Below are positions 42,490 to 60,503 of a DNA stretch of 64,000 nt, one piece after another; position 1 is the stretch's first letter, and each line of letters opens with the position of its first letter. Source of the DNA: Saccharothrix sp. S26 (lineage in GTDB: Bacteria; Actinomycetota; Actinomycetes; Mycobacteriales; Pseudonocardiaceae); NCBI RefSeq assembly GCF_021390395.1, contig NZ_JAJUWT010000005.1, forward strand, positions 310,001 to 374,000, written 5' to 3'. The notes below the pieces were generated by a model. The model was not told the DNA's origin and did not search any database. It saw only the letters and a program-made list of their open reading frames with translations. The position numbers were made by a program, and so were the translations under genes.

Positions 42490-42512
42490 GGCTCACTCCT
42501 CGGCAGTGCTGC

Positions 42513-43616: not shown

Positions 43617-43640
43617 CCGGCGGCCGCCGGGAGCACGGGT

Positions 43641-43688: not shown

Positions 43689-43691
43689 GTG

Positions 43692-44711
43692 TCAGCGCAC
43701 GACCTCGCCGTCCCCGTCCACCAGCTCCGAGTTCGCCTTGATGTGCGCCACCAGATCGTCGATCTGGGCGTACGCGACGGCGACGTACGTGTCCGCCGCG
43801 CCGTAGTAGATGGCCAGCCGACCGGTCTCGGGATCCTGCAACGAGGCGCACGGGAACACGACGTTCGGCACGAAACCCGTGGTCTCGTAGGGCTCCTGCG
43901 GCGTGAGCAGGTAGTCGCGGGTGCGGTAGAGCACCTTGGCCGGGTTCTCCAGGTCGAGCAGTGCCGCGCCCATGCTGTAGACCAGGCCGTTGCACGGCTC
44001 GTTGACCCCGTGGTACAGCACCAACCAGCCTTCGGACGTCTCGATCGGCGCCGCGCCCGCGCCGATCTTCACGCACTGCCACCACCGCGGGTCGTTGACC
44101 GACATCACCTTGCGGTGCCTGCCCCAGTGCACCAGGTCCGGGCTCTGGGACAGGTAGATGTCGCCGAACCGCGTGTGGGTGTTGTCGCTCGGCCGGGTGA
44201 GCACGACGTACCGGCCGTTGATCCGGCGCGGGAACAGCACACCGTTGCGGTTGTACGGCGTGGTGATGTTCTCCAGGCGCACGAACGTGCGGAAGTCGTG
44301 CGTCCGCCCCAGGGCCAGCGAAGCCCCGCCGAAGTCCGTGCACCAGATGATGTAGTACGCGTCCTCGACGAACACGACACGCGGGTCGTACGCGTACGTG
44401 GGCTTGTACGGCCGGCCGTCCTCGTCGACCCAGCGGATCGGTTCGTCCTCCAGTTCCCAGCTCAGCCCGTCCGCGCTGCGGCCCACGTGCAGGGCGGGTC
44501 GGCCGTCGCGGTGGTCGGCGCGGAACACGCCGGCGAACGCGCCGTCGTGGGCCACCACCGCGCTGTTGAACACACGTGCCGTCGAGGGCGTCGGGTTCCA
44601 ACCGATCAGCGGACCGGCGCGGTGGCGCCAGACGGGGCTGTCACCGCCCTCCGGCGCGGGCTGCCACGGGATGTTCGGCAGCGGATCCCCGACGATCTTC
44701 ACAGCGGGCAT
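43692..44711 (-). CDS. GH130-family glycoside phosphorylase/hydrolase
   Basis: A 339-aa five-bladed beta-propeller enzyme. Features include 'RADHRDGRPALHVGRSADGL', 'YAYDPRVVFVEDAYYIIWCT' with the conserved DPR, 'NRNGVLFPRRINGRYVVLTR' and 'GWLVLYHGV' with the YHG motif. GH130 enzymes phosphorolyse beta-1,4- or beta-1,2-mannosides such as mannosylglucose, or hydrolyse beta-1,2-mannobiose; subfamily cannot be fixed by eye. GGAAGGG precedes the ATG. It is followed upstream on the same strand by a GT4 gene (43 bases apart), so the two may be an operon for a mannose-containing glycan. Confidence 0.88.
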   Translation of the reverse strand: MPAVKIVGDPLPNIPWQPAPEGGDSPVWRHRAGPLIGWNPTPSTARVFNSAVVAHDGAFAGVFRADHRDGRPALHVGRSADGLSWELEDEPIRWVDEDGRPYKPTYAYDPRVVFVEDAYYIIWCTDFGGASLALGRTHDFRTFVRLENITTPYNRNGVLFPRRINGRYVVLTRPSDNTHTRFGDIYLSQSPDLVHWGRHRKVMSVNDPRWWQCVKIGAGAAPIETSEGWLVLYHGVNEPCNGLVYSMGAALLDLENPAKVLYRTRDYLLTPQEPYETTGFVPNVVFPCASLQDPETGRLAIYYGAADTYVAVAYAQIDDLVAHIKANSELVDGDGEVVR

Positions 44712-44754
44712 GGAAACCCTTCCGTTCCTGACGGCGTCGCCGATCTCGAGCCGG

Positions 44755-46002
44755 CTAACGCTCCACAGCGGACAGTTCAGCGGTCGAGACCACCAGGTCG
44801 GCCAGCGCGTCCCGGGAATACCGCGACCGGACCAGATCCCACGCGGCCTGCCTGCGGCGCAAGTCGGAGGCGGGATCGGCGAGCACCGCGGCGACCGCGG
44901 CCGCGAACTCGCCCGATGTCTCGGCGGCCAGGTAGTGCACGCCGTCCAGCGCGTCGATGCCCTCCATGCCCTTGGCCGTGGACACCACCGGGCAGCCGGC
45001 CGCGAAGGCCTGGAGGATCTTCAACCTGGTGCCGCCGCCGTTGCGCAGCGGCACGATGAGCAGCGATCCGGTGAAGAACGGCTCGGCGTCCGGCGGGTCG
45101 GCGACCAGGTCTACGACGCCCCCGGCGGCGGCCTCGGCGAGCACGGGGACGGGACGGCGGCCGGCGACCACGACCGGCAGCCCCGGCGCGGCCGCGGCGA
45201 TGGCCGGGCCGATGCCGGTGACGATCTCGAGCGCCGCCAGCGTGTTGGGGAAGTAGTCCAGCGCACCCAGGAAGAAGCAGCTCACGGGGCGACGCGCCAC
45301 CACGGGCCGCGAGCCCGCGGCCACCGGCACGGCGTTCGGCAGGACGACGATCGGCGCCGTGGGCGCGTACCGACGGCGCAGCCGCTCCCGGTCCGCCTCC
45401 GACGGCACGGTCACGACGTCCGCCGCGGCGACCATCCCGGCCTCCACGAACCGCACGCCGACCTGCTCGGGCACCTCCGGGTCGCGCAACCGCGGCCACC
45501 ACGGGTGCGCCGACAACTCGTCCTGCAGGTCCGCCTCGGCGTTGTGCAGGTCCACCACCAGCCGCGCGGTCCCCGCGGCCCGGATCGCGGGCAGGTACTG
45601 GCTCAGCCAGATGTGGCTGGTCACGACCACCGGGTACGGGTGGGCGTCGAGGAACTGCCGGACCTGGTCGGCGGTGCGCCGGCAGTAGTACCAGTTGTGC
45701 GGCACCGGGAGGGTGCCTTCCGGCGTGGTCATGAGCATCGCCGCGCACGGCGGGCAGCGCCGGGCGCAGCTCACCGCCGCGCGCAACGCGTTGATCGACA
45801 GCACGTCCACCGGGCCGGTCCGGCGCAAGGCGTCGACGAGTGCGGACTGGCGCATCTCAGCGCCGGTCTGGACGGCCGTGCCCTCGCTGTGGCGCGAGAG
45901 CACCGCCAGTGTGCGGCGATCACCGGCACGCGGGTCGCGGGTCAGGAACACGTCCGGCTCGACGGGATCGGCGAACCGGGCGCTCACCACGGGAGAGTTC
46001 AC
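44755..46002 (-). CDS. GT4-like glycosyltransferase with a cysteine cluster
   Basis: A 415-aa GT-B protein. The N-terminal half contains 'VVDLHNAEADLQDEL' and a middle 'VTVPSEADRERLRRRYAP' linker. The C-terminal half has 'FFLGALDYFPNTLAALEIV', 'FFTGSLLIVPLRNGGGTRLK' and 'ILQAFAAGCPVVSTAKGMEG', the donor-binding E/GxGxR-K region of GT4. Unusual for the family is a Cys-rich stretch near residues 78-107 ('SCARRCPPC' and 'WYYCRR'), CX3CX2C plus one, which could bind zinc. The GTG start follows GAGGGGTT. It lies between GH130 and the ParB-like regulator on the same strand. Confidence 0.82.
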   Translation of the reverse strand: MNSPVVSARFADPVEPDVFLTRDPRAGDRRTLAVLSRHSEGTAVQTGAEMRQSALVDALRRTGPVDVLSINALRAAVSCARRCPPCAAMLMTTPEGTLPVPHNWYYCRRTADQVRQFLDAHPYPVVVTSHIWLSQYLPAIRAAGTARLVVDLHNAEADLQDELSAHPWWPRLRDPEVPEQVGVRFVEAGMVAAADVVTVPSEADRERLRRRYAPTAPIVVLPNAVPVAAGSRPVVARRPVSCFFLGALDYFPNTLAALEIVTGIGPAIAAAAPGLPVVVAGRRPVPVLAEAAAGGVVDLVADPPDAEPFFTGSLLIVPLRNGGGTRLKILQAFAAGCPVVSTAKGMEGIDALDGVHYLAAETSGEFAAAVAAVLADPASDLRRRQAAWDLVRSRYSRDALADLVVSTAELSAVER

Positions 46003-46072: not shown

Positions 46073-47149
46073 TCAGTGCTGTCTGACCCGGGTGTCCGCG
46101 GTGCGCGGTCCCGGCACTTCCACGGTCGACGCCGCGGCGGACCGCCGCTCCACCTCCTCGGCGAAGCGACTCCACCCGGCCGCGTGCAGCCGGGCCACGT
46201 CCGCCACCATGCGCACGGTGTGGGACGGCACCGCGTCGAGCAGGTCCGCCCAGTCCTCCTCGCAGATCGACCGCGTCACCAGCAGCCGCAGCAACGCCCG
46301 ACCGCTGTCGGTGAAGCGCAGCGAGGGGTCTTTGCGCAACGCGGCGAGCGTCGCCTCGCGGTCGGCGGTCGACCCGTCCGCCGCGGCGTCCTCCCCGACC
46401 GGCGTCGCGGTCGGTCCGGCGGGTGTCGTCGCCGGACCCGGCCGGTGCTCGTGCCCGGGCAGCACCGGGCTGTCCCCGCGCCGCACGCGGTCGCGCACAT
46501 CCTTGGCGGTGCCGACGGACACCCCCGCCACGCGGGCGATCTCCCGCAGCGACGCGTCCGGCCTTTCCGCGATCAGCCGACCGGCGCGCAACCGGCCGTC
46601 CACCGCGCTCAACGGGCGCATCCGGCCGTCCGCGCCGATCCTGCGGTTGCTCAGCACCCGGTGGTCCGGGTCGCTCGCCCGCCGGATCATGCCCGCGGTC
46701 TTCACCGACAGCCCGGTCGCCGCCGCGATCGCGCGGTCGGCCCAGTGCGGGTACGAGGCGATGATCCGGCGAGCTGCGGCCTTGCGCTCCGCCAGCGTCA
46801 GCGGCAGTCCGTGCGCGATGTTGGCCTCCACGGCCAGCCGGAACGCCGCCTCGGTGCTGCCGTCGAAGAACCGCACCCGGATCTCGTCGTCACCGCGCAG
46901 GAGCGCCGCGCGCAAGCGGTGCATGCCGTCGATCACGCGCATCGTCCGCCGGTGCACCAGGATCGGCGGCAGGTCGTCCAACACCTCCGCGAGCGCGTGG
47001 ACGTGGTCGACGTTCTCCCCCGCGTTGCGCGGCGAATCGGCGGGTTTCAGCAGGCGAGTCGGGACGACCTGGGGACGTCCATTCAGCGAGGCCGACGTCG
47101 AAGAATTGTTCAAGGCTTTCTTCTTCCTTGTGCTCACGGTTCTCGTCAA
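46073..47149 (-). CDS. ParB/StrR-type transcriptional regulator
   Basis: A 358-aa protein with a ParB-like N-domain: 'PPILVHRRTMRVIDGMHRLR' (61-80, the DGMHRxxA motif at 74-81) and 'RFFDGSTEAAFRLAVEANIA'. Two HTH segments follow, 'DRAIAAATGLSVKTAGMIRR' (~138-157) and 'SLREIARVAGVSVGTAKDVR' (~199). The same architecture occurs in the pathway activators StrR and NovG, so a cluster-specific activator is more likely than plasmid partition; there is no parA. It starts at TTG 47149 or GTG 47137, without a clear ribosome site. It is divergent from the aldo-keto reductase operon, with a StrR-like site between. Confidence 0.82.
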   Translation of the reverse strand: MTRTVSTRKKKALNNSSTSASLNGRPQVVPTRLLKPADSPRNAGENVDHVHALAEVLDDLPPILVHRRTMRVIDGMHRLRAALLRGDDEIRVRFFDGSTEAAFRLAVEANIAHGLPLTLAERKAAARRIIASYPHWADRAIAAATGLSVKTAGMIRRASDPDHRVLSNRRIGADGRMRPLSAVDGRLRAGRLIAERPDASLREIARVAGVSVGTAKDVRDRVRRGDSPVLPGHEHRPGPATTPAGPTATPVGEDAAADGSTADREATLAALRKDPSLRFTDSGRALLRLLVTRSICEEDWADLLDAVPSHTVRMVADVARLHAAGWSRFAEEVERRSAAASTVEVPGPRTADTRVRQH

Positions 47150-47577
47150 CAGTCGTGAACACCGCGCTGTCCGGCGCGTGAACCCGACCGCGTGATCTCC
47201 AACAAGAACGGCGCGCCCCCAAGCACGCGGCGATGACGAAGCGGTTCAGCGGCCCGCCCCGGCGTATGGCTCCCGCTATGCGGGATCAGCGCCCACCCCC
47301 TCGGACAGTTGTGGTCCCGACGGCGATTGTGGTCACGTGGACAAGGTGCGTCAACACCACGAACGCGGGTTCGCGCCCTGGTCGGGCGTCGAGTGGGCGG
47401 ATGACCAGGGCCGATAGTTGAACCGGTTCAGCGCGAATCGCGTGTGGCGGCCGGCGTCCATCCGTGTGGCCGGTCGTCCTCCGATCGCCGCAGTGACGCC
47501 GTTCAACCGCAGTCATTTCCACAGTCGAACAGTTTGTTTAATGCCGTCGCCAGGACGGCGCTAAGGAGCGCAACGCA
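47150..47577. promoter_or_regulatory. divergent promoter region between ParB-like regulator and AKR operon
   Basis: A 428-base gap with no supported gene and lower GC content than the flanks. It contains the perfect palindrome TGAACCGGTTCA at 47419-47430, a second GGTTCA half-site near 47245, and the StrR-like inverted repeat at 47501-47530. The spread of sites suggests cooperative binding of the adjacent regulator. Confidence 0.5.
47501..47530. promoter_or_regulatory. StrR-like binding site
   Basis: GTTCAACCG (47501-47509), 12 bases, CAGTCGAAC (47522-47530). It agrees with the StrR consensus GTTCRACYG-N11-CRGTYGAAC in both arms, with one extra spacer base. It lies 48 bases before the aldo-keto reductase start, fitting an activator site. 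Confidence 0.55.
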
Positions 47578-48660
47578 ATGCGGATGAGGGAACTGGCGCG
47601 CGGGTTTCCGGTCGGCGCGCTGGGCCTGGGTTGCAGTTCGATGTCACACGGGTACGGGTCGGCCGAGCGCGACGACGAGGAGTCCGTGCTGGTGGTGCGG
47701 CGAGCGGTCGAACTGGGCGTCACGCTGTTCGACACGGCCGACGTCTACGGCCCCCACACCAACGAGGAACTGCTCGGCCGGGCGCTGCGCCCGTACCGCC
47801 GGCAGGACGTGCGGATCGCGACCAAGTGCGGCTTGGTGGTCGGGTCGGATGGTCGGTTCAGCCGCGATGGCAGGCCCGACCACCTGCGGTCGGCGTGCGA
47901 GGCGTCCCTGCGGCGGCTCGGCACGGACACGATCGACCTCTACCAACTGCACCGGGTCGATCCGGCCGTGCCCCTGGCCGAGACGTGGGGAGCGCTGAGC
48001 GAGCTCGTCGCCGAGGGCAAAGTGCGCGCGCTCGGCGTCTCGCACGCGACGGTGGACGAACTGGCCCTGATGCACGGGATCCACCCGATCACCGCGGTGC
48101 AGTACGAGCTGTCGGTGTGGGCGCCGCAGCGCAAGCGGGACGTCCTGCCGTGGTGCCGCCGCAACGGTGTGGGTTTCCTGGCCTTCTCCCCTCTCGGCCG
48201 CGGTTTCCTCTCCGGCACGCTGACCCGGGACAGCCTGCCGGCCGGCGACTCGCGCCTGCGCGATCCCCGGTTCGGCCCGGCCGCCATGCGCACCAACGAG
48301 GCCATCGTCGCGGGCCTGCGCGCGGTGGGCGCCGATCACGGCGACGCGACCCCGTCCCAGGTCGCGATCGCGTGGGCGCTGGCGCAGGGACCGCACGTCG
48401 TGCCGATCCCGGGCACCCGGCGGCGGCGTTGGCTGGAGGAGAACGTGTCGGCGGCCGACCTGCGGCTGACGGAGGAGGACCTGCGCCGGCTGGACAACCT
48501 GCCACCGACCGTGGGCGAGATGTCCTGGGACGGCGCCCGCACCCAGCCACGCCTCGGCCTCGGCCACGGTCACGGCCGGGTGCCCGTGCAGCGACAGGCC
48601 CACGAAGTGCCGACCGCCACCGGAAGTGACTGCACGTGGCACACCGAACGCGGATTGTGA
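47578..48660 (+). CDS. aldo-keto reductase
   Basis: A 360-aa (beta/alpha)8 NADPH oxidoreductase. The catalytic tetrad is visible: Asp and Tyr in 'LFDTADVYGPHTNEELLGRA', Lys in 'RIATKCGLVVGSDG', His in 'DLYQLHRVDPAVPLAETWGA'. The cofactor site is 'HVVPIPGTRRRRWLEENV'. AAGGAG (47563-47568) precedes the ATG by 9 bases. The last ~30 residues ('GHGRVPVQRQAHEVPTATG' to the stop) extend past the usual family end. It is the first gene downstream of the StrR-like site and probably reduces an aldehyde/ketone in the pathway of the following genes. Confidence 0.9.
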   Translation: MRMRELARGFPVGALGLGCSSMSHGYGSAERDDEESVLVVRRAVELGVTLFDTADVYGPHTNEELLGRALRPYRRQDVRIATKCGLVVGSDGRFSRDGRPDHLRSACEASLRRLGTDTIDLYQLHRVDPAVPLAETWGALSELVAEGKVRALGVSHATVDELALMHGIHPITAVQYELSVWAPQRKRDVLPWCRRNGVGFLAFSPLGRGFLSGTLTRDSLPAGDSRLRDPRFGPAAMRTNEAIVAGLRAVGADHGDATPSQVAIAWALAQGPHVVPIPGTRRRRWLEENVSAADLRLTEEDLRRLDNLPPTVGEMSWDGARTQPRLGLGHGHGRVPVQRQAHEVPTATGSDCTWHTERGL

Positions 48661-48878
48661 ACACCCCGGCGGTGAAGTAGCGTCCGATCGAGGGCCGCCG
48701 GACCGGCCGGACGACGTTGCCCGCACGTCGGATCCCGCACTGCTACAGGGCTTCCGCCGCGCACGTCGAGTCGTGCCCGGCACGTTCACCCGGTCGGCGG
48801 CCCGGTCGCCGACCGGCACACCGCACATCGGCGGCCCGGTCGTCGACGACAGCCCGCACATCCGAAGCGGAGATGATG

Positions 48879-50504
48879 ATGCTCGACACGCGACTCGATT
48901 CCGCGATCCGAGCCCTGTCCCGGGCCGATCGAAGCGACACGCCGCCGGCGGAGTTGCGGGGTCACATGGACGTGGTCACGCAGCACGTGCGCAGGACTCT
49001 CGAGGAGTCGGGCTCGCTGGCCTCCCTGGGCGAGCTGGCCGACGACGTGAAGGTCCTGGTGCTCCAGCAGTACTTCCGACACACGCAGACCGGCAGCCAC
49101 AAGACGGAGTTCGACCGCGACACGGTCGGCCGGTTGCTGCACGAGTGGTTCGGCATCAGCCTGGACACCACCACGTCGGACACCGCCGCTGGGGGCGACC
49201 GGTTCACCCGGCTGCCGGGTCGCATCGGGGCCGAGGCGGTGTACCGGCTGGACTTCGGGCAGACCGAGGTCTTCCTGTTCATGACCCCGACCAAGCTCGA
49301 GGCGGCGCGGGCGTTGGTCCGGTCCCTCGCCGAGGACGCCGTGCTGACCACGGAGGCCACGTCGCCGCCGTGCGAGGTGGCCGAGTTCGTCCCGCTGTGG
49401 CTCAAGGACCGCCAGCGCGACCCGGGCGAGTTCTACATCGACCGCGACGACCACCCCATCGCCGACTACTACGCCTCGCAGGAACGCGTGCTGGCCGACG
49501 AGCTGGGTGTCCGGGTGCGCGAGAGTTCCGCGGAGCTGGCCCTCGTCGCGAACGGCGACGGCCTGCGCTACCACCGGGACCGCCTGGTCAACCAGTACGC
49601 GTTGCTCGAACGCGGCGAGGAGTGCGCGGAAGACCTGCGACTGGTCCAGGACCTGACGCTGATCGACTGGGACATGCAGGCGGGCACGATGTCCGGGACC
49701 ATCTTCGAGCACCCCGACGGAGACCGCTACCTGTTCGCGCTGCACCCCGGCGAGGTCGTCGGGATGTTCTTCAGCCAGCGGCCCGTGTTCCCGGGCCCGA
49801 TGATGATGCCCTACCACTGCGCCCTGCCGGTGCTGGACCGGGAGAGCGGCCGCTCGGTCGGCGCCGCCAAGGGCAAGCGGCTCAGCGCGCTCATCCGCGG
49901 GCTGGCCGCGGGCGACGAGGTCGATGCGCTCAGCGGACGAGCCGCCGGCGTCGCACTCAACGACGTCGCGGAGGAAACGGGTGGCGTCCGCCGTTACCGC
50001 GATGGGCTCGAAGTGGCCCGCGTCGCCGACCTGCCGGACACCGCGGTGCACCCGGTCGCCCACCTCGCGGGCGACGACCAAGGCGTCTCCGTCATCGAGT
50101 TGTCCACACAGGACAATCGACCGCTGCTGGACGCCCTCGGCGCGCCCAGGGGCGCCCGGCTGTTCCGGGTCGACAAGGTCGGCGAGGGCTTCGCCGACCT
50201 CGGCGCGGTGGTGCCCGGGTTCGCCGAGGCCGCGTCGGTGACCCTGGTCAACCGCACTCGCCGCAGCCCTCGGCAGACCTCCTACCCGGTGGCCTTCGAC
50301 CACACGCTGCTCGGCCTGTCCTGGTGGCAGCTCCACCGGCTGGCCGCCGCGGACGTCATGCGGGTGCCCCTGGCGACCCGGTCGTCGCTGCGGCTGTGCC
50401 CCACCGACGAGATCCTGCACCGGTCCGCGTTGCTGGACTCCTTCCACTCGACTGGATCCCTGCGGCCGCGCACGGTGATCTCGGTCGACGTCGTCGTCGC
50501 CTGA
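48879..50504 (+). CDS. unrecognised 541-aa protein
   Basis: I do not recognise this family. It is soluble, with no signal peptide, membrane helix, nucleotide-binding loop or metal-binding cluster that I can see. The N-terminal ~120 residues are helical ('ELADDVKVLVLQQYFRHTQT'); the rest alternates beta-rich stretches ('GRIGAEAVYRLDFGQTEVFL', 'AGTMSGTIFEHPDGDRYLFA') with loops. 'KGKRLSALIRGLAAGDEVDA' is the only motif-like run. ATG 48879 is chosen among three consecutive ATG codons because GGAG lies 6 bases before it. It is 48 bases upstream of the radical SAM gene and clearly co-transcribed, so it is probably an enzyme or partner of that pathway. Confidence 0.75.
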   Translation: MLDTRLDSAIRALSRADRSDTPPAELRGHMDVVTQHVRRTLEESGSLASLGELADDVKVLVLQQYFRHTQTGSHKTEFDRDTVGRLLHEWFGISLDTTTSDTAAGGDRFTRLPGRIGAEAVYRLDFGQTEVFLFMTPTKLEAARALVRSLAEDAVLTTEATSPPCEVAEFVPLWLKDRQRDPGEFYIDRDDHPIADYYASQERVLADELGVRVRESSAELALVANGDGLRYHRDRLVNQYALLERGEECAEDLRLVQDLTLIDWDMQAGTMSGTIFEHPDGDRYLFALHPGEVVGMFFSQRPVFPGPMMMPYHCALPVLDRESGRSVGAAKGKRLSALIRGLAAGDEVDALSGRAAGVALNDVAEETGGVRRYRDGLEVARVADLPDTAVHPVAHLAGDDQGVSVIELSTQDNRPLLDALGAPRGARLFRVDKVGEGFADLGAVVPGFAEAASVTLVNRTRRSPRQTSYPVAFDHTLLGLSWWQLHRLAAADVMRVPLATRSSLRLCPTDEILHRSALLDSFHSTGSLRPRTVISVDVVVA

Positions 50505-50552
50505 CGCGCCACTGCCCACGCCCACCGCACCGGACGGACGGATGAGGAATCC

Positions 50553-51521
50553 ATGGACGAGACCCGCTTCGCGGAGAAGACCACCACCTACCTGCGCGAT
50601 CTGGCAGAGCGCAGCGAAGCCATCCGCAAGATGTACTTCTTCGACCCGGAGTTCGAGGACGTGCCCGCCGACATCGGCCGAGACCTGCTCAACGAGAAGG
50701 TGAACTCGCCGCTGTTCGGCACGGTCCGCAAGTTCGACGGGCGGTTGCTGGTGCTGCTGTCGTACACGTGCGCGGCCAACTGCCGGTACTGCGAGCGGCA
50801 GGACCGGGTCGGCGTCGGTCTGGACCGGGTCGGCAGGCTGGCGCCCCGGCAGGTCGACGCGGTCGTGGACTACGTGGCGAACGACCCGTCGCTCTACGAG
50901 GTCATCGCCAGTGGCGGTGACCCGCTCATCAACCCCAAAGGGCTGGAGCGGCTGTTCACCTCCTTGAGCCGGGTGGAGCACGTCAAGGTCCTGCGCATCC
51001 ACACCCGCTTTCCGCTGCAGTCGCCCGAGCGCGTGGACATGGCGTTGATGGAGCGCCTCGCGGCCACCAAGTCGACGGTGTACTTCAGCCTGCACATCGA
51101 CCACCCGGACGAGCTGACGCCCCAGGTGCTGGCGGTGATCCGCGACCTGCGCCGCTGCGGTTTCATCCTGATCAGCCAGAGCGTGTTCCTCAAGGGCGTG
51201 AACGACGACATCGACACGCTGCAGCGAATGTTCACGGAGCTGTTCCAGCTCGGTGTCCGGCCGTACTACATCTACCACTGCCAGCGCATCCAGACGACCG
51301 AGCGGTTCGAAATGGACCTGGCCGAGGAGGTGCGGATCATGTCCGCGCTCCGCGAGCGGCTGAGCGGGCTCGCCTTCCCGCAACACGTCATCGACCTGCC
51401 ATCGGCCCGGGGCAAGGTGCTCGTGCCGTCGCATCACTGGGACTGGGATCCCGCCAAGGTCCGCGACTTCGACGACTCGTCGCTGAGCACGGCGACCTGG
51501 CAGATCCTGCCGACGAGCTGA
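50553..51521 (+). CDS. lysine-2,3-aminomutase-like radical SAM enzyme
   Basis: A 322-aa KamA-family protein. The 4Fe-4S/SAM motif is 'SYTCAANCRYCERQ' (C73, C77, C80; CX3CX2C). 'ASGGDPLI' binds SAM, 'LKGVNDDIDTLQRMFTELFQ' and 'VRPYYIYHCQ' match the aminomutase core, and the PLP lysine is in 'SARGKVLVP'. Of the two aspartates that hold lysine's side-chain amine in lysine aminomutase (D293 and D330), the first is Gln in 'YHCQ' and the second is kept in 'VIDLPS'. A different alpha-amino acid is thus likely converted to its beta isomer. It is shorter than KamA (~416 aa), closer to EpmB, but no EF-P-modification genes are nearby. GAGGA precedes the ATG. Confidence 0.88.
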   Translation: MDETRFAEKTTTYLRDLAERSEAIRKMYFFDPEFEDVPADIGRDLLNEKVNSPLFGTVRKFDGRLLVLLSYTCAANCRYCERQDRVGVGLDRVGRLAPRQVDAVVDYVANDPSLYEVIASGGDPLINPKGLERLFTSLSRVEHVKVLRIHTRFPLQSPERVDMALMERLAATKSTVYFSLHIDHPDELTPQVLAVIRDLRRCGFILISQSVFLKGVNDDIDTLQRMFTELFQLGVRPYYIYHCQRIQTTERFEMDLAEEVRIMSALRERLSGLAFPQHVIDLPSARGKVLVPSHHWDWDPAKVRDFDDSSLSTATWQILPTS

Positions 51522-51525
51522 GCCC

Positions 51526-52533
51526 GTGGTCGCGTTCCTCTATCACGTGCCGGAAGAGCCGGTCCGCGAGGCGGATCGGCTCACCGCGCAGGTGCACGCC
51601 AACTTCGAGGACGAGCGGACCATCGCCCGTCTGGTGGACCACGTCCGCGCGCACGGGACCGAGCTGACGCCGGTGAACGCCGCCCGGGACGACTGGCCGG
51701 CCCGGGTCACGGACCGGCGGGTGTTCAACTACACCTACGGGTTCGGCCTGCTCGCCGACAGCGTGCGGCCGACGCTGGTGCTGGAGGCTGCGGGCGCGGA
51801 CTACGTCGGCGCGCCGCCCGCCGGTCTGTACCTCAGCGCCAACAAGCCGCACGCGAGCGACCTGATGGGCGCGGCCGGGTTCGACGTCCCGCGGCAGCGC
51901 CTGGTCTGCGACCCGGTGGGGATCACCGAGTCGGCCGCGCTGTGCGCGTGGTTCGGCGGGTGCGACCACGTGGTGGTCAAGCCGGCGTACGAGGAGTCGA
52001 GCGTCGGGCTGGCGGTGGCCCCGGTCGAGCCGGAGGGGCTCCGCGCCGTCCTCGCCGACCTGTTCGACCTGCTGCCGGGCCCGTTCGTGGTGCAGGAATA
52101 CGTGGAGGGGGTGGACGTCACGGTGCCGGTGATCGGGCGGACGGCGCCGCACTGCCTGCCCGCCGTCGGCCTGGTCCTCGAGCGCCCGGCCGACGGCCCG
52201 TTCGTCTTCGACGCCGCGCGCAAGGCCACGAAGGCGGACGTGCATTACGCGCCGCTCACCGAGTGGTCCGACGACGTGCTGGACGCGGTGTACGCGATGG
52301 CGTTGCGCGCGTTCCGGATCACCGGGCAGCGCGACTACGCGCGGCTGGACTGCCGAGTGACGCCGACCGGCAGGTGCTACTTCCTGGAGGTCAACGCCAA
52401 CCCCCAGCTGGGACTCGGCAAGGCTTCGTTCGCCGTCTCGGCGAACGCGGCGGGCCTCGAGGTCGGCGAGGTGATCGGCGCGATCATCCGGGACCAACCG
52501 GCCGCGCCCGGCCTGCCCGGTGCCGTGCGGTGA
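51526..52533 (+). CDS. D-Ala-D-Ala ligase-like ATP-grasp enzyme
   Basis: A 335-aa ATP-grasp ligase. The ATP-binding lysine and loop are 'HVVVKPAYEESSVGLAVAPV', 'FVVQEYVEGVDVTVPVIGRT' is the central strand pair, and the metal site is 'YFLEVNANPQLGLGKASFAV' (EVNxNP). These enzymes activate a carboxylate as acyl phosphate and form an amide or peptide bond. The GTG start lies 4 bases after the radical SAM stop. Together with the aminomutase-like enzyme this suggests ligation of a beta-amino acid to another amino acid or amine. A vancomycin-type Ddl is unlikely, as no vanH/vanX is present. Confidence 0.88.
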   Translation: MVAFLYHVPEEPVREADRLTAQVHANFEDERTIARLVDHVRAHGTELTPVNAARDDWPARVTDRRVFNYTYGFGLLADSVRPTLVLEAAGADYVGAPPAGLYLSANKPHASDLMGAAGFDVPRQRLVCDPVGITESAALCAWFGGCDHVVVKPAYEESSVGLAVAPVEPEGLRAVLADLFDLLPGPFVVQEYVEGVDVTVPVIGRTAPHCLPAVGLVLERPADGPFVFDAARKATKADVHYAPLTEWSDDVLDAVYAMALRAFRITGQRDYARLDCRVTPTGRCYFLEVNANPQLGLGKASFAVSANAAGLEVGEVIGAIIRDQPAAPGLPGAVR

Positions 52534-52540
52534 GCTCCGG

Positions 52541-53473
52541 TCACGATGACCCCGACCGCCCGCGGTGTCGGTGCGGCGGCCGCCTCCTGCCCCCCGTGCG
52601 CCGCGGCGCCCCGTCGCCGGGTCGGAGGTCTCCGGGACGGATGTCGTCGGACAGGGCGTCGTCGGTCGCGTCGTCGTCCGGTACGTCCACTTGGGCGTCG
52701 TCTTCGCGCAGTCGGTGGTAGGTCCGGTCGAGCAGTTCGTCCGACGGCGGCGGCGTGACGGGTTGCCAGAAGTCCGGGCCGGGCGGGGCGAGCACCTCGA
52801 CGCGCGCCCCGCCCGCCCAGGCCGCGTCGAACGCCAACCGCCACGAGTGCAGGAACGTGCGCAGCCCCGCCGCCTCGGCGTTCTTGTCGAACAGCGGGTC
52901 GCCCAGGATGGGGTGGCCGATCCAGGCCAGGTGCACGCGGATCTGGTGACGCCGCCCGGTGTGCGGGACGACGACCAGCAGCGTGTGCCGGTCGTCGTGC
53001 CAGGCCCGCGCGAAGCCGGTGTCCGACGGGTAGGTCCGCACGTGGCCGAACTCGGTGCCCGGCGCGAGCGACCAGCGCGACCGCTGCGCGTCGAACCCGA
53101 TGTCGGACCGGTTGCCCGCCACCCGGACCCGGTTCTTGCGGCCGACGCTGAACGGCAGCGTGATCCGGCCGCGCTCGGGCAGCCCGGTGGACGCGGTCAC
53201 CGCCAGGTACGCCTTGTCGACCGTGCGCTTGTTGAACTGGCGGGTGAGGTCGCCGTGGAACTCCAGCCGCTTGGCGAACAGGATCGCCCCGGAGGTGTTC
53301 TTGTCGATGCGGTGCGCCGGGAACAGGGTCTCGCCCGCCTCCTCGGCGAGCCGGACGAGGTCGGTGCCGTGCCGCTCGCCCATGACGGCGATGCCCGGCG
53401 GCTTGGCCAGCACCAACGCCGCTTCGTCCTCGAACAGCACCGCGCCGCGGCGCAACTCGGACCAGGTCGTCAC
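52541..53473 (-). CDS. RluA-family RNA pseudouridine synthase
   Basis: A 310-aa protein. The catalytic motif is 'HRIDKNTSGAILFAKR' (54-69) with the active Asp57 (HRxDxxTSG), and 'TGRRHQIRVHLAWIGHPILG' is the second conserved block. The N-terminal 'FEDEAALVLAKPPGIAVMGE' is typical of RluA proteins. The C-terminal ~50 residues are an Asp/Arg-rich tail. The GTG start overlaps the stop of the upstream glycosyltransferase (GTGA), so it is translationally coupled to that gene. It probably modifies rRNA; a role in the surrounding cluster is not evident. Its end lies 8 bases from the convergent ATP-grasp stop. Confidence 0.88.
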   Translation of the reverse strand: MTTWSELRRGAVLFEDEAALVLAKPPGIAVMGERHGTDLVRLAEEAGETLFPAHRIDKNTSGAILFAKRLEFHGDLTRQFNKRTVDKAYLAVTASTGLPERGRITLPFSVGRKNRVRVAGNRSDIGFDAQRSRWSLAPGTEFGHVRTYPSDTGFARAWHDDRHTLLVVVPHTGRRHQIRVHLAWIGHPILGDPLFDKNAEAAGLRTFLHSWRLAFDAAWAGGARVEVLAPPGPDFWQPVTPPPSDELLDRTYHRLREDDAQVDVPDDDATDDALSDDIRPGDLRPGDGAPRRTGGRRRPPHRHRGRSGSS

Positions 53474-54963
53474 CGCGGCGCCGCTTCCACCACGCGCAGC
53501 ACCTCGCGGGCCCGCGCGGGCGCGCCATCCGCACCGTGGACCACCATGGCCAAGTCCGCGCCGACCCAGTCGGCGGGGACGGTGAAGGCGCAGTCCGTGC
53601 GCCGCCACGTCCCGCGTCGTTCACCGGGCGTGACGCGGTCGGCACCCACGACCTCGTCACCGCGGCGGAGGTGGCTGCCCGTCACCGGTGCCGGCGACCA
53701 CGTCGTGAGGGAGATCGCCACCCGGGAGCCGGCCGCAGGCGTCGCGGCACCGAACGAGGGCATCGGGGGAAAGTCGAGTGCGTCGGGCCGAGGCGTCGTC
53801 AGGTCGATGTCCTCGACCGCCCACGGGCCCCATAGCACGGTGTAACGACCAGCCGGCGGGTGCGCGGTGAGCGGGCCGGGTGCCGGGTCGAGGGCGGCGA
53901 CCAAGCGTTCGCCGACGAGGTCGAAGCGCACCTTCCCGGCCACGGCCGCCCGCAGCACGGGGCCGGGCCGAGGCTGTGTCAGCACGGCGTCCAACGCGTC
54001 GGCCAGGGCGTCCACCTCGCCGACCGGCACCAGCGTCGCCACGTCGCCGAGTGTTTCCCGCAGCACCGGCAAATCGTAACAGACCGACTCCGTGCCGAGA
54101 TAAGCCGCCTCGACCGGGGGATATCCGAAACCCTCGAACCAACTCGGGAACAACACCGCGCCGGCACGTGCCAACAATGCGAACTTGGTCGAGTCGGGGA
54201 TTCGGTTGTGCACCTCGACGGAAGCACCCGGCACGGTGGCGAATTTCGCCTCCAGCGCCGCGACGAATTCCACGTCGACCGGACCGCCGAAGACCAGCCG
54301 CAAGGTGCGTCCGGCGAACGCGGAGGCGGGCAGTGCCAGCACGTCGCCGCCGCCTTTGTGGTCGTGGAACGGCCGGGCGAAATACAGCACGCTGCCGTCC
54401 TTGTCGCCGTGCGGCACGCGGTCGGCCACCACGCTGTTGAGCGGCGGGTAGCACTGCTCGAACCGCAGCGCGCCCACGTCGGACCGGTAGTAGTCGCGGG
54501 CGTGGCGGTCCGCTTCCAGGGTGCTGGACAGGACGATGCCGCCCCGCACCACGACTCGACGCCAGTAGTCCCACACCTCCGGGTGGTCCGGGGTGGGCGC
54601 GTACTTGTTGAACCAGTTGGCGCTCTCGTAGTTCAGCACCGCGAGGGCGGCGCCGCACCGTGCGGCGACTTGCTCGGCGCAGGAGTAGAAGGGTGGGTGG
54701 AAGCCGCCGGTCGGCGCCACGACGACCACGTCGAAGTCGTCCGCCACCTCCGCCGGGTCGTACCCCGGGGTCGTGATGTAGCGCACCGGCGCGGAGACGT
54801 CGTCCAGGTCGGCGCGCGCCGCCGGGACCGTGTTGGTCACCACCGTCACGTCGGCGCCCGCGTGCGCCATGGCGTGGGCCATCAACAACGCGTGGTAACG
54901 GCCACCGGAGTACGCCACGCCGGAGGTTGAATAGTCGTACACGAAAATCGCCGCCGAAGTCAC
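53470..54963 (-). CDS. GT4-like glycosyltransferase with extra C-terminal domain
   Basis: A 497-aa protein. Residues ~1-375 are GT-B: 'SGVAYSGGRYHALLMAHAMA' in the N-lobe, 'SVLYFARPFHDHKGGGDVLA' in the linker region, then 'LLARAGAVLFPSWFEGFGYP' and 'PPVEAAYLGTESVCYDLPVL', the GT4 donor site with the EGFGxPxxEA motif. From ~385 to 497 is a separate beta-rich domain starting 'GRYTVLWGPWAVEDIDLTTP' that I do not recognise; GT4 enzymes normally end before it. The GTG start has AGGAGGA upstream. Divergent from the ABC exporters. It may glycosylate the cluster product. Confidence 0.82.
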   Translation of the reverse strand: MTSAAIFVYDYSTSGVAYSGGRYHALLMAHAMAHAGADVTVVTNTVPAARADLDDVSAPVRYITTPGYDPAEVADDFDVVVVAPTGGFHPPFYSCAEQVAARCGAALAVLNYESANWFNKYAPTPDHPEVWDYWRRVVVRGGIVLSSTLEADRHARDYYRSDVGALRFEQCYPPLNSVVADRVPHGDKDGSVLYFARPFHDHKGGGDVLALPASAFAGRTLRLVFGGPVDVEFVAALEAKFATVPGASVEVHNRIPDSTKFALLARAGAVLFPSWFEGFGYPPVEAAYLGTESVCYDLPVLRETLGDVATLVPVGEVDALADALDAVLTQPRPGPVLRAAVAGKVRFDLVGERLVAALDPAPGPLTAHPPAGRYTVLWGPWAVEDIDLTTPRPDALDFPPMPSFGAATPAAGSRVAISLTTWSPAPVTGSHLRRGDEVVGADRVTPGERRGTWRRTDCAFTVPADWVGADLAMVVHGADGAPARAREVLRVVEAAPR

Positions 54964-55121
54964 AACCCGTTCCTCCTGTTCGCGCCTGCACATTAGCAAG
55001 TACCAGTCCGGGCGAGCGGTGTTCAACCCGGCGGAAATCCTTCGGTGTCGGGCCTTGTCGGTGCGGAACAGGGCCGTGGATACTCGCCCGGTCATCGAGC
55101 CGAACGCGGGGAGCACGGCGC

Positions 55122-57011
55122 ATGCTGGTCTGGCACGAGTGGGTCGAACAAGCCATAAGACCCCGGAAACTCATCCTCCGGTACGTGCCGGCCGCCGGCG
55201 TCGGCCCGGTCGCGGCACTCCTCGCGGTGAACGTGGTGGCGGGTGTGCTGCCGGTGGCGTTCGTCATCGCGGTAAGCGCTCTCATCGGCCACGTGGGTCA
55301 CCTGGCGGGCGGCGGCGCGCCGGGTCCGGCCCTCTGGTGGTTGCTGGCGGCCTCGGCCGGCACGTTCTTCCTCCAGCACGTCGCGACGACGCTGCACACG
55401 CCGCTGGCCGAACTGGTCCAGCGCCGCGTGGACGGTCGGGTGCACGACAGGCTGATCGAGTCCGCCCTGCGCAGTCCGGGTATCGCGCCGATGGAGGACC
55501 GGGTGACGGTCGACCTGTTCAAGGAGGCGTCGCTGCGGCTGCGGGAGGACTGGGAAACCCCGGGCACCGCGCTCGTCGGCCAGTTGGCCCTGGCCGCCCG
55601 CTACACCCGTCTTGCGGGCTTCGTCGCGATCGTCGCCGCGGTGCTGTCCTGGTGGCAGGGGGCGGCGCTGCTCGCGGCCACCCTCGTCTTCCGCTACGGC
55701 CAGCGCGGCGGGCTGCGCCGGTACTCGCGGGTGTGGCAGGAGATCACCCCTCTCGTCACCCGCAGCGACTACCTGCGCGACCTGGCGACGGGCCGTGCGG
55801 CGGGCAAGGAGATCCGCGTTTTCGGCCTGGCCGGATGGCTGGCCGGGCGCCACGCCCGAGCGGTGCGCGACTGGCTGGACCGGGTGTGGCGGGAGCGTCG
55901 CCGGATCTACCTGTACCCGTACCTCGGATTCAGCGCGATCGGGCTGGTGATCGGCGCGTTGGTGCTCGTCTCGGTCGCGCACGCGGTCGGCACCGGCGGG
56001 CTGACGCTGACCGGGTTGAGCCTGGTGCTCCAGGCGACGGTGGCCGCCCTGCTGCTCGGCGACCACTACCCCGAGTCCGACGTGCCGAGCCAGTTCGGGA
56101 TGTGGGCGGCGACGAGCCAGGACAGCTTCGACCGCCGGATCACGGCCGCGACGCGGCAGTTGCCGGTGCGGCGTCCCGCGGCCGACCCGGTCGGGCTGCC
56201 GCGCACCGGGATCAGCCTCGACCGCGTGGACTTCCGGTACGCGGCGGGCTCGCCACCGGTGCTGCGCGGGTTGTCGCTGGAGCTGCCCGCGGGTCGGTGC
56301 ACCGCGCTCGTCGGCGTCAACGGCGCGGGGAAGACGACCTTGGTCAAGCTGCTGACCAGGCTCTACGAGCCAGAGGACGGCGCGGTGCTGGTGGACGGCA
56401 TCGACCTGCGCCGGTTCCCGGTGCAGGCGTGGCGGCGCCAGGTCAGCGTCATCTTCCAGGACTTCATCCGGTACGAGCTGTCGCTGGCGGAGAACGTGGC
56501 GCTCGGCGCGGCGCACGTGCCGCTCGACGTCGAGGCGGTGCGCGACGCGCTGCGCCAGGTCGGGTTGCTGGAGTTCGCCACGCGGCTGCCGCACGGACTC
56601 CACACCCCGGTGTCGGGCGGGTACGCGGGCGGCACCGACCTGTCCGGCGGCCAGTGGCAGCGCGTGGCCATCGCCCGCTCGCTGTACGCGGTGGGCGCCG
56701 GGGCGAAGCTGCTGGTGCTGGACGAGCCGACCGCGGCGCTGGACATCCGCGCCGAGGCGGCGTTCTTCCGACAGTTCGCCACCCTGACCCGGGGGGTGAC
56801 CTCGCTGCTGATCTCGCACCGGCTGTCCAGCGTCCGGCACGCCGACAGGATCGTCGTGCTCGACGGCGGGGCGCGGGCGGAGGTTGGAGGGCACGACGAG
56901 TTGATCGCCCGCGACGGCCTCTACGCGCGGATGTTCCGGTTGCAGGCGGACCGGTTCCTCGACCCCGCGCCCCGGGACGGCCAGGTCGGACGGACGGGGG
57001 TGTCCGGATGA
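55122..57011 (+). CDS. ABC exporter half-transporter (first of pair)
   Basis: A 629-aa fusion of a six-helix membrane domain (~30-330) and an NBD (~360-600). Walker A 'LVGVNGAGKTTLVKLL', Q-loop 'VIFQDFIRYELSLAENVALG', signature 'DLSGGQWQRVAIARSL', Walker B '[20 protein letters not shown]' and H-loop 'LLISHRLSSVRHA' are all intact. GGGGAGC lies upstream of the ATG. The stop overlaps the start of the second transporter (ATGA), so they form one complex. It probably exports or confers self-resistance to the product of the neighbouring genes. Confidence 0.9.
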   Translation: MLVWHEWVEQAIRPRKLILRYVPAAGVGPVAALLAVNVVAGVLPVAFVIAVSALIGHVGHLAGGGAPGPALWWLLAASAGTFFLQHVATTLHTPLAELVQRRVDGRVHDRLIESALRSPGIAPMEDRVTVDLFKEASLRLREDWETPGTALVGQLALAARYTRLAGFVAIVAAVLSWWQGAALLAATLVFRYGQRGGLRRYSRVWQEITPLVTRSDYLRDLATGRAAGKEIRVFGLAGWLAGRHARAVRDWLDRVWRERRRIYLYPYLGFSAIGLVIGALVLVSVAHAVGTGGLTLTGLSLVLQATVAALLLGDHYPESDVPSQFGMWAATSQDSFDRRITAATRQLPVRRPAADPVGLPRTGISLDRVDFRYAAGSPPVLRGLSLELPAGRCTALVGVNGAGKTTLVKLLTRLYEPEDGAVLVDGIDLRRFPVQAWRRQVSVIFQDFIRYELSLAENVALGAAHVPLDVEAVRDALRQVGLLEFATRLPHGLHTPVSGGYAGGTDLSGGQWQRVAIARSLYAVGAGAKLLVLDEPTAALDIRAEAAFFRQFATLTRGVTSLLISHRLSSVRHADRIVVLDGGARAEVGGHDELIARDGLYARMFRLQADRFLDPAPRDGQVGRTGVSG

Positions 57012-58813
57012 GCGGGATCCTGGGCGGGTGCGCGGACCTGCTGCACGTGGCCTGGCGGGAGGATCCGCGCCGGCTCCTGGTCGCCGCAGTGCTGATGATC
57101 GGCCAGGCGGTCGCCCTGCCGCTGGCGTCCGCGGTGCTGGCGGTGTTCACCGACGCCTCGGTCGCAGGCGACGTCGGGCGCGCCGTCGGTGCGGCGGCGG
57201 CCACGGCCGGGCTGGTCGTCGCCTCGCTGGTGCTGGGGAACTTCGCCCACCTGGCGTACGAGGAGCTGGGCGAGCTGACCCTGCTGCGGTTCGACCGGGC
57301 CCTCGTGGACGTGGCCAACGGGTCCGCCAGGCTCGACCACCACGAACGGCCCGAGTACGCCGACCGGCTCCACGTGCTGCGGCAGGAGTTGCAGCGCGTC
57401 GGCTGGAACGGCGTGCAGGCGCTGGTGCCGTCGCTCGGGCTGGTGGCGGGCATCGGGATGACCGCGGTGCTGCTCGGCTCGCTCGACCCGTGGCTGCTCC
57501 TGCTGCCGCTGGCGTCCGTGCCGCCGGTGGTCGCCGGGCGGCGGGCGGAGGCAGTGGTGGCGGCGGCCCGGGAGCGGGTGTCGGAGGTCAGGCGCCGCGC
57601 GTGGCACCTCTTCGCGATGGTGGCCGACCGTGGCCCGGCCATGGAGTTGCGGGTGTGCGAGCTCGGCGACGAGGTCCGCCGACGGCACGCGCAGCTGTGG
57701 CGCACCGCCTCGGACGAGCTGGTACGCGCCGAGACGCGGGCGGCGCTGCTGCGCCTCGCGGGCCAGGGCGTGTTCGCCGCCGTGTACGCCGCCGTGACGC
57801 TGACCGTCGTGCTGGACGCGGTGTCGGGCCGGCACAGCGCCGGTGACGTCGTGCTCGCCGTGACGCTCGCCGGGCAGGTCGCCGGGCAGGTCACCAGCGC
57901 GTCCGCCCTGCTGCGCGACCTCCAGCGGTCGGCCGCGGCGATGGCGTCGCTGCGGTGGGCGCGCGGCGTCACCGCGACCGGGACGCCGTCGGACGCCGTG
58001 CTGCCACCCGACCGCATCCGCGAGGGCATCCGGCTGCGCGGCGTAACGTTCGGCTACCCCGGCGCGAAGCGGCCGGTGGCCGACCGACTGGACGTGTTCC
58101 TGCCCGCGGGCGCGACCGTGGCGCTGGTCGGCGAGAACGGGGCCGGGAAGACCTCGCTGGTCAAGCTGCTGTGCCGGTTCCACGAACCGGACGCGGGCAC
58201 GATCGAGGTGGACGGCGTGGACCTGCGGCGGTTCGACCCGGCGGCCTGGCAGCGCCGCATCGCCGCGGGGTTCCAGGACTTCGTCCGGTTCGAGCTGTCC
58301 GTCCGCCACGTCGTGGGCGTCGGCGAACTGCCGCTGGCCGACTCCGACCCAGCGGTCCGCGCGGCACTGCGCCGGGCCGGGTCGGAGGACGTGCTCGACC
58401 GCTTCGACGGTGACCTGGACACCCTGCTCGGCAGCTCCTTCCCGGACGGCACGGAGCTGTCCGGCGGCCAGTGGCAGAAGCTCGCCGTCGGCCGCGCGAT
58501 GATGCGCGAGGACCCGCTCCTGCTGGTGCTCGACGAGCCGACCTCGGCGCTGGACCCTCAGACGGAGCACCTGCTGTTCGAGCGGTACGCCGCCACCGCG
58601 CGCCGCACGTCCAACAACGGGTCCATCACCCTGGTGGTGTCGCACCGGTTCTCTACCGTCCGCGACGCCGACCTCATCCTGGTGCTGGCCGAGGGCAGGC
58701 TCGTCCAGGCCGGCGACCACGACGCGTTGATGGCCGAGGGCGGGATCTACCGCGACCTGTACGAGCTGCAGGCCGGGTCCTACCGGTCGTCGTCGGAGGC
58801 GGCCGGCGGGTAG
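57008..58813 (+). CDS. ABC exporter half-transporter (second of pair)
   Basis: A 601-aa half-transporter with the same layout: membrane domain ~20-300, NBD ~335-585. Walker A '[16 protein letters not shown]', signature '[17 protein letters not shown]', Walker B '[20 protein letters not shown]' and H-loop '[13 protein letters not shown]' are intact, so unlike the siderophore pair both ATP sites should work. It shares the unusual 'QDFxRFELS' Q-loop with its partner, indicating gene duplication. Its last 34 bases overlap the convergent ectC gene. Confidence 0.9.
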
Positions 58814-59178
58814 CTGCCCTTGTCGTCGTGCACCTCGCGGCCGGTCAGCGCGGGCGTGAACACGCACACCATGCGCAACTGGGTCGTCGCGCGGACGGTG
58901 TGCCGCTCGTGGCCGTCCAGCAGGTACATCGTGCCGGGCCGCAACGGGTGCCGGTCGCCGCTCTCCCCGTCGACCAGCTCCCCCTCACCCTCAACGCACA
59001 GCACCGCCTCGACGTGGTTGGTGTACCACATCGCCGTCTCGGTGCCCGCGTACATCACCGTCTCGTGCAAGGAGAAGCCGACACCGTCACCGGCCAGGAC
59101 GAGCCGTCGGCTGCGCCAAGTGGCTGCGACGACATCCCGTTCGGTACCACTGATCTGGTCGAGCGTGCGGACGATCAT
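58780..59178 (-). CDS. ectC: L-ectoine synthase
   Basis: A 132-aa cupin. It cyclises N4-acetyl-L-2,4-diaminobutyrate to ectoine, a compatible solute. '[20 protein letters not shown]', '[20 protein letters not shown]', '[20 protein letters not shown]', '[20 protein letters not shown]' are the classic EctC blocks, including the metal-binding cupin residues. The ATG overlaps the ectB stop (ATGA), and a GGAAGGG site lies within ectB. It overlaps the end of the convergent ABC gene by 34 bases. Confidence 0.96.
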
Positions 59179-60458
59179 GCGAGCATCCCTTCCTGTTCCT
59201 GTCGTCGCGCCACCGGCGCGCCTGGCAGCGCGTCCACCGCGTCGGCGAGGATCCGCAAACCCCGGGCCAGTTCGTCGGCCGGGATGGTCAGCGCGGGCAT
59301 CAGCTTGACCACCTCGTCACGCGGCCCGGCCGTCTCCACCAGCAGACCCCGCCGGAACGCCTCGCGCGCGACGGCCGCCGCATCACCCGGGCGCCGCAAC
59401 GCCAGCCCCCACACCATGCCGCGCCCGCGCACGACCGGGTCCAGGTCCGGCCGTCGACCGGCGATGTCCGCGAGCGACCGCGCCAGCACGGCCGCGTTGA
59501 CCGCCGTCCGGTCGGCGAGGGCGTCGTCGGCCCAGAACAGCTCCAACGCCCGCGCGGCGGTGAGCAGGGCGGGCCCCACCCCCCGGAACGTCCCGCTGTG
59601 CTCGCCGGGCCGCCACCGGTCCAGCTCGCGGCGGAACAGGGTGAGGCCGAGCGGCAACCCGTACCCGCTCAAGGACTTGGACAGGCACACGATGTCGGGG
59701 CGCACGCCGGCGGCCTCGAAGCTGAAGAACGGGCCGGTCCGGCCACAGCCCATCTGCACGTCGTCGACGATGAGCAGCACCCCGTTGCGCCTGCAGGCCG
59801 CGGAGAGGGACCGCAGCCACTCCGCGCGCGCGACGTTCACACCGCCCTCGCCCTGGACGGTCTCGACCACCACCGCCGCGGGTGGGTCGGTGCCGTCCCC
59901 GTCGAGCACGGCCCAGCGGTCCGCTCCGGGAGCGCTCGGGGTGGTCCCGTCGTCGAACGGGATCAGCACGGTGTCGCGCGGTGGGACGCCGGTGTCGTGC
60001 CGGCGCGCCGACCCCGCCAAGGACTGCGCGCCGAGCGTCATCCCGTGGAACCCGTTGACGAAACCGACCACGCGGCGGCGGCCGGTGATCTTGCGCGCGA
60101 GCTTGAGGGCGGCTTCGACGGCGGTCGTGCCCGCGGGACCGGAGAACTGCACCTTGTAGTCCAGGCCCCGAGGTCGAAGCACCACCTCGTCGAGGGTGGA
60201 CAGCAGCAGGCGCCGGGGGCCGGTCCACATGTCCAACCCCTGCACCAGGCCGTCGCGTTCCAGGTGCGCCAACAGCGCCTTCTTCAGGTCCGGGTGGTTG
60301 TGGCCGTAGTTCAGCGCGCCGGCGCCGGTGAAGAAGTCCAGCCAGGCCCGTCCCGACTCGTCGTACAGGTGGCTGCCAACCGCCCGGTCGAAGACCACCG
60401 GCCACTGCCGGCAGTAGTTGCTGACGTTGGAGTCGAGGTGGTCGAACGCGTTCGGCAT
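59175..60458 (-). CDS. ectB: diaminobutyrate-2-oxoglutarate transaminase
   Basis: A 427-aa class III PLP aminotransferase. It converts aspartate semialdehyde to L-2,4-diaminobutyrate with glutamate as amino donor. '[20 protein letters not shown]' is the typical EctB N-terminus, '[19 protein letters not shown]' binds PLP phosphate and the Schiff-base lysine lies in '[20 protein letters not shown]'. ATG 60458 with GGAGAGC upstream is preferred over an in-frame GTG 12 codons earlier. Middle gene of ectABC. Confidence 0.96.
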
Positions 60459-60503
60459 CGCGCTGCTCTCCGTCCGGTCGTGGGTGACGGGCACGCGTGG
60501 CGC

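Follow-up and report, generated by a model that had tools for sequence, protein, structure and literature searches.

Within a 64,000-nt stretch of the genome of Saccharothrix sp. S26 (contig NZ_JAJUWT010000005.1, 310,001-374,000; called the window here, with all positions counted within it), three adjacent plus-strand genes at 48873-52533, separated by gaps of 48 and 4 bp, encode an orphan protein that we call P541, a KamA-like radical SAM enzyme and an ATP-grasp ligase that resembles D-Ala-D-Ala ligase (Ddl). Genome comparisons indicate that this trio is a real and rare unit under purifying selection, and we regard it as an evenly balanced proposition that the trio is a horizontally moving cassette of specialised metabolism, the products of which would together oxidise, 2,3-isomerise and ligate an amino acid other than lysine. 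In the scheme that we propose, P541 would be a divergent oxygenase of the double-stranded beta-helix (DSBH) fold, probably dependent on Fe(II) and 2-oxoglutarate (2OG), that hydroxylates the amino acid; the KamA-like enzyme would shift its amino group from the alpha to the beta carbon through pyridoxal phosphate (PLP) and 5'-deoxyadenosyl-radical chemistry; and the ATP-grasp enzyme would join the resulting beta-amino acid with another amino acid by way of an acyl phosphate, the product presumably being exported. As a compact and testable entry to a class of small molecules, consisting of three genes that are rare (3 of 392 genomes, see below) and mobile and that include a family absent from the Pfam and NCBIfam sets searched, the trio appears to be a promising natural-product lead, which probably builds a core with a beta-amino acid.

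Distribution and synteny of the trio

P541 was sought among 149 relatives of the window (with the single protein), 25 genomes of its genus (with a two-row profile) and 397 genomes of its order (with a four-row profile), sets that overlap, and in each of them the only match was the window's own genome; among 72,556 plasmid records there was no match at 1e-5. A pattern scan of a collection of 84,980 species, which under-counts because it requires short exact peptide matches, returned one P541 locus, 49% identical, in Streptomyces sp. CNH099. Among 392 genomes of that genus, themselves a sample from a larger group, P541 occurs in three (G435, which is CNH099, G540 and G619), and exactly the same three carry a KamA-like protein of the cluster type (676-696 bits); three more of the 392 pass 1e-50 at 174-179 bits with KamA proteins of a different type. 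If the two genes were distributed independently, such co-occurrence would have a probability of about 1e-7, although two of the three genomes share one insertion, so that there were fewer events than genomes. Since the insertion site is common to G435 and G540, the independent loci, that of the window included, number three and not four.

The original prediction for this stretch had proposed an undescribed biosynthetic locus and had looked to conserved synteny in other genomes as its check. P541, KamA-like and ATP-grasp genes do stand adjacent, in this order, in all four P541 loci (window, G435, G540 and G619), the window proteins being identical to the other three copies at 48-51% (P541, over the aligned part), 69-77% (KamA-like) and 55-57% (ATP-grasp), and between G435 and G540 the trio has dN/dS ratios of 0.34, 0.21 and 0.46. 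The idea that the trio belongs to no known, named cluster also stands, in that none with P541 was found in Pfam, NCBIfam, PDB sequences or the open-licence literature: P541 has no relative in these three databases (PDB sequences were searched with two-row and four-row queries), and among the papers that the literature searches listed, no title or beginning of an abstract describes the trio. Neither the aldo-keto reductase (AKR), nor the regulator-like gene, nor the GT4-like glycosyltransferase that accompany the trio in the window has a match in the other three loci (tblastn, 1e-5), which argues that the trio is the core and that the rest is local.

Predicted chemistry of the three core proteins

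The KamA-like enzyme was compared with lysine 2,3-aminomutase (LAM; 2a5h), two EpmB proteins, two TIGR03822-type proteins, a Deinococcus KamA and four other actinobacterial KamA proteins. All four cluster copies keep the CxxxCxxC cluster motif (C73, C77 and C80), the PLP lysine K288 (LAM K337), the carboxylate arginine R82 (LAM R134) and, at the position of LAM D330, the aspartate D281, which is Glu in both EpmB proteins. At the position of LAM Asp293, however, the four cluster copies have Gln (Gln244), as opposed to Asp in LAM 2a5h and in all nine of the others. Asp293 of LAM binds the lysine side chain; the literature matches listed hold no mention of this residue. With the lysine-recognising Asp replaced by Gln in 4/4 copies, lysine is an unlikely substrate, and our reading of these residues is that the enzyme would be an aminomutase for a substrate without a lysine side chain. 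Radical aminomutases with known substrates form a small set, which a non-lysine KamA, if true, would widen.

In a FastTree phylogeny of 13 proteins, the four cluster copies form one clade (support 1.0) on a long branch. The best NCBIfam match of the window protein, to TIGR03822, reaches 231.5 bits and misses the cut-off of 396.25; the scores also fall below the EpmB/LAM equivalog cut-offs (TIGR03820, 167.8 against 525.4; TIGR03821, 189.8 against 369.3) and those for glutamate and arginine 2,3-aminomutases (TIGR04368, 172.8 against 650; TIGR04468, 157.6 against 600). Even TIGR00238, a subfamily model of the KamA family, is missed (189.6 bits; cut-off 199.2), and the protein is therefore called KamA-like here and placed in no named subfamily. 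The protein has the radical SAM motif, the lysine for PLP, the arginine for the carboxylate and the second Asp in common with LAM, EpmB and TIGR03822-type proteins, from which it differs in the Gln, in the missed cut-offs, in its long separate branch and in having no recognised gene for elongation factor P (EF-P) nearby.

It could be argued from this kinship that the KamA-like enzyme works with its partners on a protein or an RNA, by EpmB-like beta-lysylation of EF-P or something similar, and not on a small molecule. TIGR03822 and EpmB are indeed its nearest named families, the TIGR03822-type gene of a Rhizobium plasmid adjoins efp and epmA, and an RNA enzyme of the RluA type lies beside the trio in three of the four loci. 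We nevertheless hold this explanation to be very improbable, given that no efp or epmA was recognised among the neighbours examined (the flanks of the other loci were scanned in part), that the scores fall far short of the EpmB/LAM cut-offs, that the Asp293 position is Gln, and that the loci are mobile and have exporter-like genes and, in three of them, carrier-adenylation and condensation proteins. On the Rhizobium plasmid (L033, 4101-9535) the order is efp, epmA and the TIGR03822-type KamA, followed by genes for an acyl carrier protein, an acyl-CoA dehydrogenase and an amino acid-[ACP] ligase.

Like D-Ala-D-Ala ligases, the third protein of the trio has a C-terminal ATP-grasp domain, in which the catalytic motifs E-x-N and K-P-x-x-E-x-S-S-x-G look intact when read by eye. 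Unlike them, it misses the NCBIfam Ddl cut-offs (TIGR01205, 65.6 against 245.65, and likewise nine other NCBIfam models listed), and its N-terminal ~85 residues match no family; its identity to plasmid proteins is 26-30% in 15 of the 18 matches listed. Judged by its family, it would join one amino acid to another. The earlier suggestion of a beta-amino acid that is made, ligated and exported still fits, with the KamA residues kept, the ATP-grasp motifs apparently intact and exporter-like genes nearby.

P541 may be a divergent oxygenase of the Fe(II)/2OG type. A model built from a two-row alignment, informative for fold comparison at ~363-541 only, predicts with low confidence that this C-terminal third forms a DSBH domain, the fold of Fe(II)/2OG oxygenases such as AlkB and P4H, and before this domain, in a region without a usable model, the pattern H232-x-D234...H313...R334 is invariant in 4/4 P541 sequences and would be a putative metal site. 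Set against the known oxygenases, P541 has no detectable sequence relation and an extra N-terminal part of ~200 residues; its size is like that of OGFOD1, which, like Tpa1, is a tandem-DSBH protein. The original description of the protein as unrecognised is thus borne out at the level of families and tempered by this low-confidence structural resemblance.

Several observations weigh against an oxygenase. The model has a mean predicted local distance difference test score (pLDDT) of 44.6; over residues 201-360, where the HxD pattern lies, the averages of ten-residue blocks are 21-34, residues 218-244 are drawn partly as helix, and residues 461-541 are mixed (29-80). Foldseek returned no match to the model at E <= 0.001, the 2OG models of Pfam and NCBIfam gave none up to E 5 for three of the four sequences scanned, and hhalign against five YbiX-type 2OG proteins did not surpass 30 column shuffles. 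Only the softest of three gap settings lets a simple profile alignment match H313 and R334 to the His and Arg of YbiX, the two stricter ones giving nothing; at the softest, 6 of 100 shuffles reach the score of region 200-345 and none of 40 that of the whole protein, a borderline result (maximum 35.1 against 35.5). In the C-terminal DSBH, the better-modelled part, no HxD...H set is invariant among the four sequences, and this, with the negative hhalign and borderline profile results, favours an alternative that keeps the rest of our explanation and gives P541 a structural, binding or transferase role, its beta-helix domain being degenerate. We think this rather unlikely in view of the invariant HxD...H...R upstream of the DSBH in all four sequences and of a precedent, the Pbo cluster considered below, in which a 2OG enzyme is encoded in the same neighbourhood.

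Another conceivable candidate, set aside, was a hydrazine-forming heme enzyme of the KinJ/FzmP kind, considered because negamycin contains a beta-lysine unit. It was judged from gene neighbourhood only; no ferredoxin is among the families found near the trio, none having been searched for specifically, and 55% of KinJ neighbourhoods contain a ferredoxin gene (PMC12154649). A literature search for a negamycin gene cluster with an aminomutase found nothing.

Partner genes, mobility and the pseudouridine synthase

In G619 the trio occupies a stretch of 0.61-0.68 guanine-plus-cytosine content inside a 33-kb region that is otherwise at 0.69-0.80. In G482, which is closely related to G435 and G540, genes for glpK, glpF, an RluA-type pseudouridine synthase and a SpoU methylase lie side by side without the cluster, whereas in G435 and G540 a condensation gene separates glpF from RluA, and the trio and its partners separate RluA from SpoU (glpF and glpK were named by eye from sequence, SpoU by Pfam in locus L002 and elsewhere by identity).

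By Pfam, the G619 trio is followed by a sulfotransferase (PF19798), a carrier-adenylation protein, a condensation protein and a major facilitator superfamily (MFS) protein, and the G435 locus likewise has condensation and carrier-adenylation proteins, to which the G540 counterparts are 80% and 87% identical. Translations read by eye add, in G435 and G540, a sulfotransferase-like start and a downstream ABC ATPase with two permease-like proteins, the ATPases being 30-31% identical to ABC protein 1 of the window. Exporter-like genes are thus near every trio locus. The window trio has none of these partners alongside except its own two ABC proteins, and has AKR, GT4 and RluA genes; the best match of the G619 carrier-adenylation protein in the window's genome is 37% identical over residues 108-608. 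The lack of a nonribosomal peptide synthetase (NRPS), which the original prediction had pointed out, is therefore not a defining trait, since a carrier-adenylation protein and a condensation domain are found at the other three loci. There the two, the latter as a stand-alone domain, would probably acylate the product, which might also be sulfated; in the window, tailoring may fall to the AKR and/or the GT4 instead.

The nearest precedent for this gene content is the Pbo cluster of Pseudomonas syringae pv. phaseolicola, where pboF (KamA-like), pboG (ATP-grasp) and pboH (2OG dioxygenase) are consecutive in a ~20-kb, 16-gene cluster of NRPS/polyketide synthase (PKS) type that lies on a genomic island and has an orphan product (PMC8473136). 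Compared by gene content, the two systems share the KamA-like and ATP-grasp genes in a row, which adjoin a 2OG dioxygenase gene in Pbo and that of the putative oxygenase P541 here, as well as adenylation and condensation genes and MFS transporters; Pbo differs in being of 16-gene NRPS/PKS type, and the passages of PMC8473136 consulted name no P541. Given the Pbo row, the logic of the trio is a variation on an arrangement known before, P541 being what is new, and this logic may in turn bear on the orphan Pbo cluster.

RluA adjoins the trio in three of the four loci and has no match in the 33-kb region that surrounds the trio in G619. The motif HR[IV]DxxTSG is present in all ten copies looked at. 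The gene occurs in 7 of 121 genomes of the CNH099 genus (two with the trio, five without P541) and in 4 of 99 relatives of the window, its own genome included, the G108 copy having an internal stop; at E <= 1e-40 there is none in the other 24 genomes of the window's genus. RluA and SpoU are paired in G482, G485 and G548, and in G435 and G540 they flank the trio on either side. The window RluA is 59-60% identical to the cluster-borne copies and 60-61% to those of G482 and G485, its best match being that of G092 (65%). At the DNA level the G540 RluA is nearer to that of G435 (88.7%) than to that of G482 (83.8%), which favours a link to the cluster; for glpF the order is reversed (91.6% against 95.4%), and for SpoU there is no difference (90.9 against 90.5%). 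Absence at the G619 trio, presence in 5 of 121 genomes without P541, and a window copy not closest to the cluster copies led us to reject RluA as a conserved core gene. The neighbouring RluA and SpoU genes of three genomes without P541 are at L020 9461-10783, L024 1054-2344 and L023 650-3224.

Since the window RluA is not specially close to the cluster copies, trio and RluA probably became neighbours on two occasions. This speaks for a functional connection between them, for instance that an RNA target is protected, though chance could also account for it. The enzyme would probably modify an RNA target in self-protection and not take a core step; if the link is functional, pseudouridylation would be tied to antibiotic self-protection. 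The consulted part of a paper on Psi-footprinting (PMC9290621) has no mention of pseudouridine. RluA might instead supply a pseudouridine building block for a peptidyl C-nucleoside that resembles pseudouridimycin; pseudouridine synthases are linked with C-nucleoside clusters, and here too such a gene adjoins a biosynthetic locus in 3/4 cases, overlapping the GT4 gene in the window. This we hold to be most unlikely: the gene is of the RluA type, whose members act on RNA, it also stands apart from the trio (in five of 121 genomes without P541, beside SpoU in three of the five, and with no match near the G619 trio), and no other C-nucleoside gene was recognised. The boldest extension of our preferred explanation is that P541 founds a new tandem-DSBH oxygenase family, that with a KamA enzyme of a new substrate type and the ATP-grasp ligase it would make a new class of hydroxylated beta-amino-acid dipeptides hitting the translation machinery, and that RluA was recruited independently, in the window and in G435/G540, for self-protection by RNA pseudouridylation; taken whole, we consider it doubtful.

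Gene layout of the window

Table 1. Genes at 46073-58813 of the window
Feature	Position	Strand	Basis
Possible ParB/StrR-like regulator	46073-47149	-	Weak helix-turn-helix (HTH) matches
Aldo-keto reductase (AKR)	47578-48660	+	PF00248, E 1.4e-74
P541, orphan protein, 541-543 aa	48873 or 48879 to 50504	+	Four sequences
KamA-like radical SAM/PLP enzyme, 2,3-aminomutase-like, own clade	50553-51521	+	PF04055
Ddl-like ATP-grasp ligase	51526-52533	+	PF07478, 61 bits, cut-off 24
RluA-family pseudouridine synthase	52541-53473	-	PF00849, 92 bits; HRIDKNTSG motif
GT4-like glycosyltransferase with C-terminal extension	53470-54963	-	PF00534/PF13692
ABC exporter-like protein 1	55122-57011	+	PF00005
ABC exporter-like protein 2	57008-58813	+	PF00005; 4-bp overlap with protein 1

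The gene calls of the original prediction are confirmed for the AKR, P541, the KamA-like and ATP-grasp enzymes and the two ABC proteins. Its block is real and was drawn too wide, and holds nine genes against the eight first counted, the minus-strand RluA having been overlooked. The tight order claimed for five genes is found in the trio and breaks down at the AKR, a possible tailoring gene specific to the window, which stops 212 bp short of P541 and is without a match at the three other loci. The glycosyltransferase with an extra domain exists, but on the minus strand and outside the shared core; its gene and the start of RluA overlap by 4 bp (GTGA) and probably form a two-gene operon of their own facing the trio. 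Lacking a match in the other loci, the GT4, like the AKR and unlike the trio, appears specific to the window, and glycosylation within the system is not upheld. StrR-type is a tentative label for the regulator-like gene, which has no Pfam or NCBIfam match at 0.001; its weak matches up to E 5, to HTH and other models, include no ParB model.

Upstream, at 21789-37720 on the minus strand, are genes for a 4486-aa NRPS (four adenylation and six condensation stretches), a periplasmic binding protein and a Lys/Orn N-monooxygenase, an assemblage that looks like a hydroxamate-siderophore locus. Its four adenylation stretches in the same window invite the view that the trio is a supply line for this NRPS, which we find highly unlikely, as a sugar locus with a LacI-type regulator intervenes and the three other loci pair the trio with different adenylation and condensation proteins. 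The sugar locus (41503-46002) consists of the LacI regulator, a GT8, a GH130 phosphorylase and a GT4-like gene.

Beyond the ABC exporter-like genes, ectC (58780-59178) and an aminotransferase gene read as ectB (59175-60494) lie on the minus strand. Between the ectB-like protein and the best match in each of six further genomes of this genus (7/25 matching, the window's own included), identity is only 58-60%, so low that no clean empty site can be drawn, and this side of the cluster may also have been acquired. At 16260-21593, on the plus strand, a 1777-aa protein with HTH_31, NACHT and HEAT repeats is encoded.

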